This document shows, piece after piece, positions 1,467 to 10,793 of a stretch of DNA of 49,478 bases (position 1 is the stretch's first letter; the number at the start of each line of letters is the position of its first letter). The translations under genes and the position numbers were made by a program. The stretch is from the NCBI GenBank assembly GCA_902826885.1, contig CADEGL010000019.1, positions 7,638 through 57,115 on the forward strand, given 5' to 3'. The DNA comes from an uncultured Alphaproteobacteria bacterium. GTDB lineage: Bacteria > Pseudomonadota > Alphaproteobacteria > CADEGL01. The notes beneath the pieces were generated by a model. The model searched no databases and was not told where the DNA came from. It worked only from the letters and a program-made list of their open reading frames with translations.

Positions 1467-2312
1467 ATGGCCAAGACAGCCCCCGCGCGGGGAGACGGCG
1501 GCAAGAAGAGCTTCGCGTTCGTCGCGTCGCTGGAGAAAGGTATCTCGGTGCTGCGCGCCTTCGCGGGCGTCGATGGGCCGATGCGCCTGATCGACATCGT
1601 GGCCGTCACGAACCTCGAACGCAGCGCGGCACAGCGCCTGGTCTACACGCTGGAGGAGATGGGCCTGCTCATTCAGGACACGCGCACGAAGCTCTACGCC
1701 CTGTCGCCGCGCGTGTTGGAATTCTGCTTCGCCTATTTGCGCAACGACCGGCTGGCCAGCGCGGCCCTGCCCTATCTGCTCGAAGCCAACAAGGAATGCG
1801 AGGAAGCCGTCACCCTGGTCGAGCCTTACGACACCGAGGTCTATTACGTGACGCGCTTGCCCAGCCGCCGCGCCATCGCCATGGATGTGGTACCGGGCAC
1901 TTGGTTTCCGGCCTGGTGCATCGCGGCGGGCCGCGCGATCTTGGCCTTCCTGCCCGAAGGACGGGCGCGCGACATCGTCGAACGGTCCAAGCTCGTGCGC
2001 TATACGCCCAACACGCTGACCGGCAAGGCGCAGGTCATGGATGCGCTCAAAAAAGCGCGACAGGACGGTTACGCGGTATCGAAGGAAGAGTACGGCTATG
2101 GCGACATCTCAATCGCAGCGCCCGTGTTCGACGCCGCCAACGGCGTGATCGCGGCCGTCTCGATCTCCGGCCCAACCGATCGCTGGAACCTGGCCCAAGC
2201 CACGCGCGAGCTAGCGCCCCTGGCCCAAGCCGCCGCTTCGCGCATCTCGGATTCCCTTCGCGGTGCCTCCACGCTGGCCCAACCGGGACGTTTCATCCCG
2301 CCGCGGCGCTAA
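1467..2312 (+). CDS. IclR family transcriptional regulator
   Basis: A 281-residue DNA-binding regulator. The N-terminal winged helix-turn-helix spans roughly residues 15-80 (SLEKGISVLRAF ... RSAAQRLVYTLEEMGLL), and the C-terminal IclR effector-binding domain follows, with the typical GTWFPAWCIAAGRAILAF segment. IclR proteins sense small metabolites and usually control the adjacent catabolic gene. Its divergent orientation to the FAD oxidoreductase, with a 99-bp shared promoter region, makes that gene the probable target. The Shine-Dalgarno before the ATG is weak. Its 3' end overlaps the convergent DUF202 gene by 4 nt. The ligand is unknown. Confidence 0.92.
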   Translation: MAKTAPARGDGGKKSFAFVASLEKGISVLRAFAGVDGPMRLIDIVAVTNLERSAAQRLVYTLEEMGLLIQDTRTKLYALSPRVLEFCFAYLRNDRLASAALPYLLEANKECEEAVTLVEPYDTEVYYVTRLPSRRAIAMDVVPGTWFPAWCIAAGRAILAFLPEGRARDIVERSKLVRYTPNTLTGKAQVMDALKKARQDGYAVSKEEYGYGDISIAAPVFDAANGVIAAVSISGPTDRWNLAQATRELAPLAQAAASRISDSLRGASTLAQPGRFIPPRR

Positions 2313-2695
2313 AGCTTCGAAACAAAAGCGTGGGACAGATAAAAGAACAGCGACAAGCCGAGCAACGCCATCAGGGCTGCCAGCACGATGTCCGCCCGGC
2401 GGCCCGCCCCGTTGTACAATTCCACCCGTTCGATGGCCCGCGCGTTCGCGATGAATCGTATGCCGGCTAGAACCACCATGGCCGTGCCCAAGACAATCAG
2501 CGCCAAGCCGGCCACGTTGCCGAATTTCTGACCCGGCACCGAGAGGCTTCGCCCCGTCATCGACGGGGCCGCGATCTCCAAGAACAGGTCGAACTTCTCG
2601 ACGATGAAGCCGAACGCCATGACGGCGACGGAAGTGCGCACCCAAGCCAGGAAGGTGCGCTCGTTGGCGGAATGATCGCTGAAATTCTTGATCAT
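2309..2695 (-). CDS. DUF202 (YidH-like) inner-membrane protein
   Basis: A 128-residue membrane protein of the DUF202/YidH family. The N-terminus contains the hallmark ANERTFLAWVRTSVA segment, followed by three hydrophobic helices at about residues 20-43, 60-80 and 100-120. The family's function is not known. It lies on the same strand as, and 53 nt downstream of, the array of small Cys-rich exported proteins, so co-transcription is possible. It converges on the IclR gene with a 4-nt overlap. The Shine-Dalgarno is weak. Confidence 0.88.
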   Translation of the reverse strand: MIKNFSDHSANERTFLAWVRTSVAVMAFGFIVEKFDLFLEIAAPSMTGRSLSVPGQKFGNVAGLALIVLGTAMVVLAGIRFIANARAIERVELYNGAGRRADIVLAALMALLGLSLFFYLSHAFVSKL

Positions 2696-2748: not shown

Positions 2749-2862
2749 CTAACAGTTCGGCGCGCAGCCTTGTCCCATCGGCCCGCGCGGCTCGGCCTTT
2801 CCCGCCGGGCCGGATGCGACCGCCAAGCCCAGCACGGTCAGGAAAAGAAGCGCACGGATCAT
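2749..2862 (-). CDS. 37-aa exported Cys peptide, copy 2
   Basis: A tiny gene of 37 codons plus a TAG stop. The product starts MIRALLFLTVLGLAVASG and ends EPRGPMGQGCAPNC. A basic residue, a hydrophobic core and a small-residue AGKA site predict Sec export with cleavage before the Glu, which would release a 14-residue peptide with two cysteines as C-x3-C. It has the same length as the upstream copy and matches it over E-P-x-G-P-M-G-x-G-C-x2-N-C, so the pair arose by tandem duplication. Its ATG lies 6 nt after the stop of that copy, suggesting translational coupling. I recognise no family and assign no function. Conservation across the pair, despite divergent codons, argues that it is a real gene. 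Confidence 0.65.
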   Translation of the reverse strand: MIRALLFLTVLGLAVASGPAGKAEPRGPMGQGCAPNC

Positions 2863-2868
2863 CGGGTT

Positions 2869-2982
2869 TCAGCAGTTCGCGCCGCAACCGCGGCCCATGG
2901 GACCACCCGGTTCGGCATGGCCGGCGGTGACGGCCGCGGCGCCGATGCCAAGGGCAAGGATCAGAAAAAACACGCGCAGCAT
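2869..2982 (-). CDS. 37-aa exported Cys peptide, copy 1
   Basis: A gene of 37 codons encoding a protein that starts MLRVFFLILALGIGAAAVT and ends EPGGPMGRGCGANC. The N-terminus is a clear signal peptide; cleavage after AGHA would leave a 14-residue peptide with C-x3-C at its end. A good ribosome binding site (AAAGGAACG) lies just upstream of the ATG. The downstream gene is a duplicate with the conserved pattern EPxGPMGxGCxxNC. It shares strand and a C-terminal cysteine pair with the four small lipoproteins immediately upstream (3069-4126), from which it is separated by an 86-bp gap containing a hairpin. No known family is recognised. A metal-binding or thiol-redox role is only a guess. Confidence 0.7.
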   Translation of the reverse strand: MLRVFFLILALGIGAAAVTAGHAEPGGPMGRGCGANC

Positions 2983-3037: not shown

Positions 3038-3067
3038 GCCGGCAGTGACCGGCGTCACAGGGCCGGC
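3038..3067. terminator. Hairpin between lipoprotein 4 and the 37-aa peptides
   Basis: Inverted repeats GCCGGC (3038-3043 and 3062-3067) and, inside them, GTGAC/GTCAC (3045-3049 and 3054-3058) form a strong stem just after the stop of the last lipoprotein gene. There is no T-run, so it may act as an attenuator or mRNA-end stabiliser rather than a classical intrinsic terminator. Confidence 0.4.
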
Positions 3068-3068
3068 G

Positions 3069-3347
3069 CTACCAGCACATGCCCGCTGGGCAGCTCGTCG
3101 ACATCATCATCTGCTGCTGCATCTGCACGGCGTTCATGTCCTGCTCCCGCTGTTTGTCGCGGTTCTGGGTGAGGGTCAGCATGCACTTGGCGAACGCGTC
3201 GCTGCCGGGTTTGTTGCCCTGCTCTTCGCAAGTTTTTTCATCCTGGGCTTTCAGCTCCGCCGACGAAGTGCAGGCCGCCAGCAGCAGTCCAGCCAGAAGC
3301 GGGGCCAGAAACCGGACCGTCCGTGCATCTCGCGCAACCTGCCGCAT
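3069..3347 (-). CDS. Small Cys/Met-rich lipoprotein, paralog 4
   Basis: A 92-residue predicted lipoprotein with a signal peptide ending in lipobox LLAAC. The mature part carries CEEQGNKPGSDAFAKCM, which fits the C-x3-G-x10-C-M motif shared by all four genes of this array. It then has a charged, probably helical stretch and a Met-rich tail ending CPAGMCW. The ATG at 3347, 7 nt beyond the stop of the preceding paralog, is preferred over an upstream in-frame ATG at 3374 that would overlap that gene. Closest sibling is the preceding gene, with the shared (N/Q)NR...DMNA-QM...MMM pattern. Function unknown; Met and Cys suggest soft-metal or redox chemistry in the periplasm, which is inference. Confidence 0.75.
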   Translation of the reverse strand: MRQVARDARTVRFLAPLLAGLLLAACTSSAELKAQDEKTCEEQGNKPGSDAFAKCMLTLTQNRDKQREQDMNAVQMQQQMMMSTSCPAGMCW

Positions 3348-3354
3348 CAGCCGG

Positions 3355-3603
3355 TCACCAGCACGCGCCGGCACACCCGGGCGCCATCATCATGCTTTCT
3401 TCCATCTGCATCGCATTCATGTCGTCGTTCCGCATCTTTGCGCGATTCTGGTCGACCACCATCATGCATTTGGAAAACGAATCCGAGCCCTGCTTGAAGC
3501 CGTAGCCCTCGCATTTCTTCTCGTCCGCCGCCTTTTGCTCGGCGGCCGTGGTGCAGGCCGCCAGCGCTAGGGCCAGCAGCAAGGAAAAAACGAGCCGTTT
3601 CAT
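3355..3603 (-). CDS. Small Cys/Met-rich lipoprotein, paralog 3
   Basis: An 82-residue predicted lipoprotein beginning MKRLVFSLLLALALAAC, with the lipid-modified Cys at residue 17. The mature chain contains CEGYGFKQGSDSFSKCM (C-x3-G-x10-C-M), a charged helix, then a methionine-rich end with MQM and MMM and the terminal C-x3-C motif CAGACW. The ATG at 3603 is chosen because GGAG lies at proper spacing before it; another ATG exists four codons upstream. It is the third of four tandem paralogs on this strand. No enzyme or domain is recognisable. The end resembles the C-x3-C terminus of the two 37-residue peptides downstream. Confidence 0.78.
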   Translation of the reverse strand: MKRLVFSLLLALALAACTTAAEQKAADEKKCEGYGFKQGSDSFSKCMMVVDQNRAKMRNDDMNAMQMEESMMMAPGCAGACW

Positions 3604-3651
3604 CAGGCACTCCATTCCCGGGTTAAGAACAACCCAGTCCCCATCGCGTCG

Positions 3652-3888
3652 TCAGCAGCAAGGCGCTCCCATCAGCGCCATGTCGTCCGCATCCATTTGC
3701 GCCTCGGAATCGTCCTCGAACTGCTGCTCCCGCGTGCTGGCGTATTTCTGCATGCAGTAATCCATGCCGTTGGTATCGGGTCGGAAGCCGTAACCTTTGC
3801 AGTAGTTCATGGCGTCCTGCCGGCGCTCCTTGTCGGATTCGCACGCCGCGAGCGCCAGGATCAGGAACGGAACGGCCAACCAGCGCAT
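3652..3888 (-). CDS. Small Cys-rich lipoprotein, paralog 2
   Basis: A 78-residue predicted lipoprotein with lipobox LAAC at residue 16. It contains CKGYGFRPDTNGMDYCM, matching C-x3-G-x10-C-M, followed by an acidic stretch with several Asp, Glu and Met residues, and ends GAPCC. It starts 7 nt after the stop of paralog 1, so the two are probably one transcript. It lacks the final Trp seen in the other three. The ribosome binding site is modest (TAGGG close to the ATG). The repeated architecture over four adjacent genes makes real coding very likely; the function is unknown. Confidence 0.78.
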   Translation of the reverse strand: MRWLAVPFLILALAACESDKERRQDAMNYCKGYGFRPDTNGMDYCMQKYASTREQQFEDDSEAQMDADDMALMGAPCC

Positions 3889-3895
3889 CCCTAGC

Positions 3896-4126
3896 CTACC
3901 AGCAGCACGCCATCATGGCGGAGTCCTGCACCTCCTGGGCATCCATCTCGTCGCTCATTTCCTTCTGGGCCTTGAGGTCGCTGTCGACCATGCACTTGTT
4001 GAAGCCGGGATCGCTTGGCATGACCCCCTTGGCGATGCACGCGCTTTCCGCGTTCGCGACCTCATCCTGCTTACTGATGCAGCCCGCCAGAGCGAGCGCC
4101 AACACAAGCGCGAGCAACGGTTTCAT
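3896..4126 (-). CDS. Small Cys-rich lipoprotein, paralog 1
   Basis: A 76-residue predicted lipoprotein, the first of the tandem array in transcription order. The signal peptide MKPLLALVLALALAGC ends in a lipobox with Cys16. The mature region has CIAKGVMPSDPGFNKCM, fitting C-x3-G-x10-C-M, then an acidic, Met-containing helix and the end MMACCW. A strong Shine-Dalgarno AGGGGGA precedes the ATG, so the promoter for the array should lie in the 123-bp gap up to the divergent SDR gene. The CxxxG...F..CM motif occurs in my memory in other alphaproteobacterial small lipoproteins of unknown role, but I cannot name a family. Confidence 0.78.
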   Translation of the reverse strand: MKPLLALVLALALAGCISKQDEVANAESACIAKGVMPSDPGFNKCMVDSDLKAQKEMSDEMDAQEVQDSAMMACCW

Positions 4127-5016: not shown

Positions 5017-5655
5017 CTAGAAGTGGTAACGGACGCCCAGCAGCGCGTTGTGGCTCATGAACTGGGAGTCATAATTACCGCCGTTGGTGGCATTGAACGT
5101 GGGATCGAGCGTCGCGAAATAGCGGTACTCGACGAAGGCCGTGATGTTCTGAGTGAGGTCGTAGCCTAGGCCGCCGATGGCCTGATAGGCGAACACCACA
5201 TCGCTGTCGTCGACCAGCTGGGTGCCGTTGATGCGGATATCGTTGGCCGACACGCGCGCCACGCCGATGCCGCCGCCGATATAGGGCTTGATCTTCATGC
5301 CGACATCAAAGTCGTAATAGCCGTTGGCCATGAAGCTGAGGGCGGACTCGTTGCCCTCGGTATTGAATTCCGGGCCGCTATTGACTTGGGTCTTGTCGGT
5401 CGACGAATTGCGGTAGCCCAACTCGCCCTCGGCGCGGAAGCCGTTGCCGAACCGGTAGCCGCCGGCGCCCAGGAATACATAGCCCGTGTCGAACGAAGTC
5501 TCGAGCGAATTGCCGCCGTTTTCGCTGTCGGCCTGCTCGAACCAGGTCGCGCCGCCCGCACCGCTGACGTACCAGTTGGGTTCCGCGGCCATCGCGGCGG
5601 ACGATATAAGGAGAGTTGTAGCGGTCAACGCCGCCTTCATCGCGATCTTCGGCAT
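5017..5655 (-). CDS. Outer-membrane beta-barrel protein (Omp25-like)
   Basis: A 212-residue exported protein predicted to form a small eight-stranded beta-barrel in the outer membrane. The signal peptide MPKIAMKAALTATTLLISSA ends near AMAA, and the mature chain has alternating amphipathic strands (YVSGAGGATWF, YVFLGAGGYRFG, FMANGYYDFDVG, KPYIGGGIGVARV, ITAFVEYRYFA) and closes with GVRYHF, the C-terminal Phe signature for BAM insertion. The start at 5655 follows AGAGG at good spacing; an ATG eight codons earlier lacks one. Members often serve as structural or surface proteins rather than specific porins. Followed by a strong terminator, so monocistronic. Confidence 0.88.
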   Translation of the reverse strand: MPKIAMKAALTATTLLISSAAMAAEPNWYVSGAGGATWFEQADSENGGNSLETSFDTGYVFLGAGGYRFGNGFRAEGELGYRNSSTDKTQVNSGPEFNTEGNESALSFMANGYYDFDVGMKIKPYIGGGIGVARVSANDIRINGTQLVDDSDVVFAYQAIGGLGYDLTQNITAFVEYRYFATLDPTFNATNGGNYDSQFMSHNALLGVRYHF

Positions 5656-8341: not shown

Positions 8342-10063
8342 CTAGGGAGTGGCGGGCGCTTCGCGCCGGCGTTTATTCATTTCAGCGCGCTGTGCCGCCA
8401 CCTCGTCGATGCGCGCGCGCAAGGACGGATACTTGGCGAGAAAACGGCGGAACTCGCGCTGATTGAGCACGAGAAGCTGTGAATAATCGATGGCCGTCAC
8501 GTCGGCCGAGCGGCGCGCGCCCGAAAGCAACGCCATCTCGCCGAAGAACTCGCCGGCATCCAAGCGGATCGGCGTGCCGCCCTCGACATCCACTTCGACC
8601 GAGCCCGAGGAAATAAAGAACGCCGCGTCGGCGCGCTCTCCCCTTCGGATGATGCGCTCGCCGGGTACGGCCGCGCGTGGACGGAACAAGGTCAAAAGTT
8701 CTTCCCGCTCGGCGCCATCCAACCCCTCAAACATGGGCAGCTTGCGCGCCAGGTCGCCGGTGCGGAGACCGTGGTAGGCGCCCTTCTTCTCTTCCTTTTC
8801 ATGCTGCGTGCGCTCCAGCTCGTGGCGAAGCGCGGTCAACCGCTGGTCACGCCTGCCGCCGGTGCGCGGACGCAATCGCGCCGAGAGAGCCTCCGCCGCC
8901 CAGAACATCAGAGGATTGAAGGTGATGGACAAGATGCCACCGGCCAACAGTAGGTCGCGCCCGTCGGCCGGCAAAATACCGAGCGTGAGACCAAGGCCTG
9001 CCAAGATAAAGGTGAACTCGCCGATCTGCGCCAGCGCCGCCGAAACCGTGATCGCGGTCGTGGCCGGGTAGCCCAGCGCAATCACGATGATGAAGGCGGC
9101 CAGCGACTTGCCGAACAGGATGACCGCCAGCACCGCCGCCACGGCCCACGGCTCGCGCACCAAGATCGCCGGGTCGAACAGCATGCCGACGGAGACGAAG
9201 AAGAGCACCGCGAAGGCGTCTTGCAACGGCAGCGAGTCCTCGGCCGCCTTATGACTGAGGTCCGACTCGCTGAGAATGACACCCGCGAAGAAAGCACCGA
9301 GCGCAAAGGAGACGCCGAACAGCTTGGCCGAGCCGAAGGCGATACCCAGCGCAACGGCCAACACAGAAAGCGTGAACAATTCGCGCGAGCCCGTACGCGC
9401 CACCTGTGACAGGAGCCAGGGGACGATGCGCGGTCCGATGGTGAGCGCCAGAACGACGAAGGCCACGACCTTGCCGAGCGTCACGGCCAGCGACACGAAT
9501 AGGTTTCCATCGGGTGCGCCTGCCGCCCCGTGGCCACCCATAACCTCGGCGAAGGCCGGCAGCAGGACCAAGGCCAGCACCATGGCCAAATCCTCGACGA
9601 TCAGCCAGCCTACAGCGACACGGCCATTGACTGTCTCGATCGAATTTCGCTCGTCGAGCGCGCGCAGCAACACGACCGTGCTGGCAACCGACAGAGACAA
9701 CCCCAGCACGATGCCCGCGCCGAGACTCCAGCCCCAGGACATAGCCAGCGCGGCGCCGATCGCTGTCGCGACGGCGATTTGCGCCACGCCGCCAGGCACG
9801 GCGACCCAGCGCACGGCTTTGAGATCGGCCGCGGAAAAATGCAGACCGACCCCGAACATCAAGAGGATCACACCGATCTCGGCCAATTCCAGCGCCAGAT
9901 GGATATCGCCGACAAACCCCGGCGTGAACGGTCCCATGGCGATGCCTGCCAACAGGTAGCCGACAAGCGGCGGCAAGCGCAGCTTGGTGGCCGCGAAGCC
10001 GAACGCGAAGGCAGAGACCAGCCCGACCGCGATCAAGGCGATCAAGGATGTTTCATGCGGCAT
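8342..10063 (-). CDS. CPA2 cation:proton antiporter with C-terminal cNMP-binding domain
   Basis: A 573-residue inner-membrane antiporter expected to exchange Na+ or K+ for H+. Residues 1-390 form the Kef/NapA-like membrane domain, with the ion-site segment VGWLIVEDLAMVL (E157, D158). After a charged linker (about 395-440) comes a cyclic-nucleotide-binding domain at 442-555 with phosphate-binding cassette FGEMALLSGARRSA at about 507-520. No TrkA-N/KTN domain is present, unlike KefC and YbaL, so control by cAMP or cGMP rather than NAD(H) is suggested. The ATG at 10063 is 4 nt beyond the stop of the upstream dehalogenase; the longer upstream extension has no membrane-protein character and overlaps that gene. 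Confidence 0.9.
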   Translation of the reverse strand: MPHETSLIALIAVGLVSAFAFGFAATKLRLPPLVGYLLAGIAMGPFTPGFVGDIHLALELAEIGVILLMFGVGLHFSAADLKAVRWVAVPGGVAQIAVATAIGAALAMSWGWSLGAGIVLGLSLSVASTVVLLRALDERNSIETVNGRVAVGWLIVEDLAMVLALVLLPAFAEVMGGHGAAGAPDGNLFVSLAVTLGKVVAFVVLALTIGPRIVPWLLSQVARTGSRELFTLSVLAVALGIAFGSAKLFGVSFALGAFFAGVILSESDLSHKAAEDSLPLQDAFAVLFFVSVGMLFDPAILVREPWAVAAVLAVILFGKSLAAFIIVIALGYPATTAITVSAALAQIGEFTFILAGLGLTLGILPADGRDLLLAGGILSITFNPLMFWAAEALSARLRPRTGGRRDQRLTALRHELERTQHEKEEKKGAYHGLRTGDLARKLPMFEGLDGAEREELLTLFRPRAAVPGERIIRRGERADAAFFISSGSVEVDVEGGTPIRLDAGEFFGEMALLSGARRSADVTAIDYSQLLVLNQREFRRFLAKYPSLRARIDEVAAQRAEMNKRRREAPATP

Positions 10064-10067
10064 CGGC

Positions 10068-10793
10068 TCAGGCCCGCAGATCTTCCTCGTGGAGCGCGAC
10101 CAACCCCGCAAGGCTCGTGACCAGAAAATCGGGCTTGGTGAATTCAGGCGGGGTCTGCGTGCCGCCATATCCCGACTTACCGTGACGGCGATAGACCCAT
10201 GTTGAGGCCAGACCGATTTTCCGCGCCGTGCCGATATCGTGATACTGGCTCTGCGCCACGTGCAACACGCGCTCCTTCGGCACGCCGAGTTTCGCGATAT
10301 AGCCAAGGAAGTAATCGAATGCCTTGGGATCGGGCTTGGATACGCCCATGTCCTCCTCGGTGATCACGGCGAGGAACGGCGAGCCCAGGGTCTGGGCCAT
10401 GGCGCGCGCCGATACGCGGTCACCGTTGGTGACCGCGACCAAGTGCCGGTAGTTACGCTTGAGATAGGCAAGCGCCTCGACCGAATCCGGGAACGCGGGC
10501 CAGTTGCGCGCGGACGCCAGGAACGCCGCGCCGTCGCTCGGCTGAACCTCGATGCCGTATTCCTTCGCGATGCCGGCCCAGATTTTCGGCGCGCGGCCGC
10601 TGAAGGAAAGCTTGGGCTCGGCCTTGCGCACGGCGCTTTGCGCCCGCGCATAGGCTTCCAACATCTCCTGATCGGTGGCTTCTGGCTTCGCTCGCAGAAC
10701 ACGCGGGCGCACCCAGTTGAGCACCCCCGACTCGAAGTCGATCAGGGTGCCAATGATGTCGAAGGTCAGGACGTCGAAGTCGGTCAGGCGCAT
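10068..10793 (-). CDS. Haloacid dehalogenase type II (HAD superfamily)
   Basis: A 241-residue hydrolase of the L-2-haloacid dehalogenase branch. The nucleophile is D12 in TFDIIGTLIDFE. Motif II is VAVTNGD, motif III the Lys of GVSKPDPKAFDYFL, and motif IV the Asp of QYHDIGTARKIGL. Length and the helical cap after motif I match type II dehalogenases. These release halide from 2-haloacids, but many homologs act on phosphate or other small acids, so the true substrate is open. It is only 4 nt upstream of the CPA2 antiporter gene and very likely co-transcribed with it. Confidence 0.88.
   Translation of the reverse strand: MRLTDFDVLTFDIIGTLIDFESGVLNWVRPRVLRAKPEATDQEMLEAYARAQSAVRKAEPKLSFSGRAPKIWAGIAKEYGIEVQPSDGAAFLASARNWPAFPDSVEALAYLKRNYRHLVAVTNGDRVSARAMAQTLGSPFLAVITEEDMGVSKPDPKAFDYFLGYIAKLGVPKERVLHVAQSQYHDIGTARKIGLASTWVYRRHGKSGYGGTQTPPEFTKPDFLVTSLAGLVALHEEDLRA

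Follow-up and report, generated by a model that had tools for sequence, protein, structure and literature searches.

A four-gene array of predicted hairpin lipoproteins, with methionine- and cysteine-rich tails, from an unnamed alphaproteobacterial family

The nearest relatives of the locus described here are unnamed alphaproteobacterial lipoproteins with two cysteines separated by 14 residues (C-x14-C). These share with our array their size, lipobox, hairpin, cysteine spacing, charged second helix, and frequent occurrence as tandem pairs. Unlike the array, most have no cysteine in the tail, none was found with a methionine-rich cysteine tail, and the loci that we read contain two genes rather than four. 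Members of a further group, the f50-type (L036, L037, L041, L046, and L047, all in small alphaproteobacterial genomes), combine the hairpin with a C-terminal cysteine pair, mostly ending CW, as in the array. However, they are single copy at the loci read, their tails have no methionine, and their neighbours are different; upstream, we recognised by eye a gene for a MoxR-like ATPase and another that is vWA-like. The Cor/Llp superinfection-exclusion lipoproteins (PMC13164509) are also small, with paired cysteines, but the Cor proteins of N15 and T1 have no C-x14-C motif. Finally, bufferins and other MNIO-modified peptides (PMC12452194) are short, secreted, and contain cysteine. In this they are like two 37-codon peptides flanking the array, although neither genome of the source genus encodes an MNIO enzyme.

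The window analysed is a 49,478-nucleotide stretch of DNA from an uncultured alphaproteobacterium. According to the original prediction, it contains a tandem array of paralogous lipoprotein genes. Four adjacent genes, of 76, 78, 82, and 92 codons, are indeed found between positions 3069 and 4126, all on the minus strand and transcribed in the order A, B, C, D. The conserved same-strand run reaches past the array, to two genes for secreted peptides (2749-2982), and closes with a DUF202 gene. The features are listed below; dN/dS values are from comparison with a second species of the genus.

3896..4126, minus strand: lipoprotein A, 76 aa; hairpin CIAKGVMPSDPGFNKC; tail SAMMACCW; ortholog dN/dS 0.114, 5 of 5 cysteines kept
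3652..3888, minus strand: lipoprotein B, 78 aa; hairpin CKGYGFRPDTNGMDYC; tail MALMGAPCC; ortholog dN/dS 0.115, 5 of 5 cysteines kept
3355..3603, minus strand: lipoprotein C, 82 aa; hairpin CEGYGFKQGSDSFSKC; tail SMMMAPGCAGACW; ortholog dN/dS 0.049, 5 of 5 cysteines kept
3069..3347, minus strand: lipoprotein D, 92 aa; hairpin CEEQGNKPGSDAFAKC; tail QMMMSTSCPAGMCW; ortholog dN/dS 0.170, 5 of 5 cysteines kept
3045..3059, no strand assigned: palindrome TGTGACGCCGGTCAC, between D and the peptide 1 gene, upstream of peptide 1; identical in both species
2869..2982, minus strand: secreted peptide 1, 37 aa; predicted mature part EPGGPMGRGCGANC; ortholog dN/dS 0.078, the two species agreeing fully in the predicted mature part
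2749..2862, minus strand: secreted peptide 2, 37 aa; predicted mature part EPRGPMGQGCAPNC; paralog of peptide 1, absent from the locus in the second species
2309..2695, minus strand: DUF202 membrane protein (PF02656, E 2.6e-17), closing the conserved same-strand run

Genes A and B, like C and D, are separated by 7 bp, and the gap between B and C is 48 bp. Note that C could also start at an ATG at position 3615, giving a protein of 86 aa. By inspection, each protein has a lipobox (LAGC in A; LAAC in B, C, and D), in agreement with their proposed lipoprotein nature. The mature proteins are 61-67 aa long and have four mature cysteines each. Their C-termini are ACCW, APCC, CAGACW, and CPAGMCW, for A to D respectively. 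Hence, spacing of the tail cysteine pair is 0, 0, 3, and 4. In C and D, the sequence MMM occurs a few residues ahead of this pair. The four proteins are mutually homologous, so the array is paralogous as claimed; identity is 57% between C and D, and 30-38% when A or B is compared with C. A tree did not resolve the relation among A, B, and C/D (69 columns, weak forks). Synteny and the shared tails suggest that a single origin, via duplication within the genus lineage, is likely. A C-x3-G-x10-C-M motif, described earlier as invariant, is present in all four proteins. However, its glycine is not strictly invariant, since the ortholog of B in the second species has CKGFS. Among the family members that we read, the ‘CM’ is a feature of the source genus only, barring one or two others.

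Genome comparisons leave little doubt about the genes themselves. The source genome (G000; 3.87 Mb in 134 contigs) contains A-D and no further confident family member; two extra, weak matches failed to recur in a later search. Homologs are found in related genomes. All four genes, in the same order, are present in a second species of the genus (G001), the only one of five genomes from the taxonomic family to carry them, and there is a wider family, described below. For A-D pooled, dN/dS between the two species is 0.115 (Nei-Gojobori), with individual values of 0.049-0.170. All 20 cysteines, and 27 of 28 methionines, are kept between A-D and their orthologs. Because gene order is the same, dN/dS is low, and every cysteine is kept, we conclude that A-D are real genes under purifying selection. 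Two outcomes that would have refuted the original prediction, a lack of homologs and a dN/dS near 1, were thus not seen. Note that the second species’ copy of C has one in-frame TAA, at the tyrosine of CEGYGF. Besides this ortholog of window positions 3355-3603, premature stops occur there in those of 5017-5655 (an outer-membrane protein, with its TAA likewise at tyrosine) and 8342-10168. Comparison of the whole contig found nonsense codons of several kinds in orthologs of clear genes: TAA at tyrosine, TGA at serine and cysteine, and TAG at tryptophan. The last two kinds speak against recoding of TAA as tyrosine. Hence, these in-frame stops are probably consensus errors in the metagenome-assembled genome, rather than a changed code.

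The wider family has the motif C-x3-G-[FYWH]-x2-[GDE]-[TS]-x2-[FY]-x2-C. We searched with a hidden Markov model built from the four array proteins and five relatives. Of 387 alphaproteobacterial genomes, 76 gave a match at E 0.01 or better, although chance may account for the weakest of these. A search of 397 genomes from across Pseudomonadota gave matches in 35, only three of them from outside Alphaproteobacteria. The proteins A-D, themselves rows of the model, score between E 6e-11 and 2e-17. Spacing of the cysteines is exactly 14 residues in all 56 motif-fitting members; as the search pattern admitted just 14 or 15, this describes a regularity but does not test it independently. Four members are off pattern: in three, the turn is longer by one residue, and in the other, K replaces G. 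Spacing is 14 in each of A-D. Protein C matches the family motif in full, and A, B, and D each deviate from it in one to three places (F replaced by V or N; G by S together with T by D; F/Y by M). Tandem pairs are frequent in the family (for example L034, L067, L070, and L073), and some members are two hairpins in one protein. In two Rhodobacterales-like genomes (L034:9148-9405 with the next gene, and L070:1225-1823), a tandem pair lies, by eye, between imuB-like and imuA-like genes.

In the members scanned, the family part stayed below the cut-off of every Pfam and NCBIfam model; one member passed the generic lipid-attachment model LPAM_1 only. Annotated members are hypothetical proteins (e.g. 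Sinorhizobium meliloti UIJ95852.1) and we found no paper describing the family in the open-access literature. Known lipoproteins were rejected as matches. For YgdI/YgdR, D scores 13.2 bits against the NCBIfam cut-off of 42. For the Lpp/OprI alanine-zipper, a distant homolog scores 14.5, against a cut-off of 43, and A-D have no match. For VirB7-like type IV secretion lipoproteins, the score is 13 bits, against a cut-off of 60, and there is no type IV secretion gene among nine neighbours scanned. Family members also occur in unexpected places and forms. A homolog is found on Serratia plasmids; the S. marcescens copy (L160:2992-3207) is a clear hairpin lipoprotein, in a gammaproteobacterium and so outside the family’s usual hosts. 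A member at L048 has, on the same hairpin, a histidine-rich tail (RNHWHHHH), another possible metal ligand. Eight distant family loci, read by eye, have mixed contexts with no conserved neighbour, and hence context does not pin down the function of the scaffold. We conclude that a widespread family of predicted hairpin lipoproteins, as yet without a name, has genuinely expanded to four genes in the array.

An AlphaFold2 model, built on seven sequences, has helices at residues 4-17 and 25-56, joined by a turn and followed by a disordered tail. Cysteines 15 and 30 flank the predicted turn. Over residues 1-40, local confidence is good (pLDDT 78-88; for the whole model, mean pLDDT 72.5 and pTM 0.45). 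With only seven sequences, and this pTM, pairing of the two predicted helices is not certain. Foldseek searches of PDB and BFVD returned nothing below E 0.2, which is to be expected of so small a helical hairpin, and no credible homolog of solved structure was found. In 55 members with a recognisable lipobox, which are related sequences and not 55 independent observations, mature cysteines besides the lipobox cysteine number two (35 members) or four (20 members), and never an odd number. Similarly, there are zero or two cysteines after the first hairpin, in the tail, and never one. Note that the four-cysteine class owes part of its number to double hairpins, and that the tail pair is seen in several distant lineages. 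Both the source genome and the second species encode DsbB. As the compartment is oxidising, cysteine numbers that are always even favour oxidised pairs, acting as structural staples. Overall, the case for a hairpin lipoprotein scaffold is strong.

What might these proteins do? We infer that A-D would be secreted and anchored, via the lipidated N-terminal cysteine, facing the periplasm. The anchoring membrane is most likely the outer membrane, because aspartate is not found at position +2. Each mature protein would consist of a short helix, a C-x14-C staple over a tight turn, a longer charged helix, and a flexible tail, in which the second cysteine pair would normally be oxidised. In this reading, the hairpin is a generic alphaproteobacterial scaffold and the tail its variable working part. 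In the source genus, tails appear to have turned rich in methionine and cysteine, and the gene to have been amplified to four. The last 25 residues contain six methionines in each of C and D, four in A, and three in B, against a background of 2.4% in neighbouring proteins; in both C and D, this enrichment reaches significance (P 2e-5 for either protein). Just one other family member reaches three. Among the sequences compared, the methionine-rich cysteine tail is specific to the source genus, with the cysteine pair itself found also in a few distant lineages. Judged by this methionine and cysteine composition only, the tails may bind copper or other soft metals, as the original prediction proposed. 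Our preferred reading is that the array proteins are stapled hairpins at the outer membrane, whose tails most likely buffer soft metals, Cu(I) among them, or oxidants, in a passive manner. We put the probability of this at about 0.4. Against the soft-metal part, the neighbours scanned with Pfam include no metal-handling gene. Furthermore, distant members with the same cysteine tail (e.g. CNRFYCW) have no methionine, so the cysteine pair alone is no sign of metal.

A purely structural role is an alternative that we consider almost as probable. Here, the hairpin and second, tail disulfide would make a compact, protease-resistant envelope protein, the C-terminal aromatic residue would contact an outer-membrane protein or peptidoglycan, and methionines would be helix-formers rather than ligands. 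The even cysteine counts suit such a role, as does the absence of conserved neighbours at the distant loci inspected. Furthermore, a terminal W or F occurs in 22 of 58 sequences, from several separate clades, with and without tail cysteines. Terminal tryptophan in members with no tail cysteine suggests a different, protein-contacting job for the tail end, and this residue may make contacts in its own right. However, a structural role leaves unexplained the MMM runs and four-fold amplification, both confined to one genus. Nor does it sit well with the strong methionine enrichment in C and D, or the near-complete retention of methionine between species.

Disulfide chemistry was considered in the original prediction as a relay. 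The oxidised pairs are supported, by even cysteine counts and DsbB, but nothing indicates a relay, and staples are the better description. In a thiol-redox relay, tail pairs would cycle between dithiol and disulfide, exchanging electrons with outer-membrane partners and, for instance, aiding their disulfides. Conserved and exposed pairs near the C terminus, spaced as CC or C-x3/4-C, would fit. Conversely, their spacing differs between paralogs and does not match CxxC, as found in known thiol oxidoreductases. The predicted structure has no thioredoxin fold, and no Dsb or Ccm gene is among the scanned neighbours; we consider a relay improbable. Least probable is exclusion or receptor masking, from the periplasmic side of outer-membrane receptors, as for phage Cor or Llp: C and the Serratia plasmid homolog match PHROG 1119 (Cor superinfection exclusion; E 9e-5 and 0.001), but just 1 of 20 family members does so, no phage genes lie beside the array, the lipoprotein has no match in a phage collection, and homology to Cor is ruled out, since translated N15 and T1 Cor lack the hairpin and align in the lipoprotein leader (signal peptide and lipobox) only.

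Turning to the surroundings of the array, both 37-codon peptides end GC-x2-NC. A third paralog is elsewhere in the source genome (G000:C1:222576-222686; L124:9574-9687), giving three copies there; the second species has peptide 1 and a match to a copy at a contig end. Among genomes searched, this peptide family is found only in the source genus, and peptide 1 is under purifying selection. The palindrome TGTGACGCCGGTCAC occurs exactly once, as an exact match, in either genome; in form, it is a putative Crp/Fnr-like site. The DUF202 ortholog in the second species is 77% identical and adjoins the array, whereas the other three genomes from the taxonomic family gave no match. An SDR gene, upstream in the window, was not seen at that place in the second species. 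None of nine neighbours scanned with Pfam is a copper or metal-homeostasis gene. A search for an MNIO gene (DUF692, PF05114) gave no match in either genome of the genus, and matches in two relatives of other genera. On this ground, we rejected bufferin-type, MNIO-modified products for the flanking peptides. The array, the two cysteine-ending peptides, and the DUF202 protein could together be an envelope cassette, specific to the genus, that buffers soft metals of the copper type, independent of MNIO chemistry, although we regard this broader proposal as unlikely.

The family is present in about one in five sampled alphaproteobacterial genomes, rhizobia included, yet has no Pfam or NCBIfam entry. 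With a clean motif, even cysteine counts, and clear purifying selection, it is a class of envelope protein well open to testing. Within it, the array would be a natural experiment, where one scaffold has been copied four times and given soft-ligand tails. If the cassette proposal is correct, it would employ lipid-anchored methionine/cysteine tails on a disulfide-stapled scaffold for which metal carriage has not been described.
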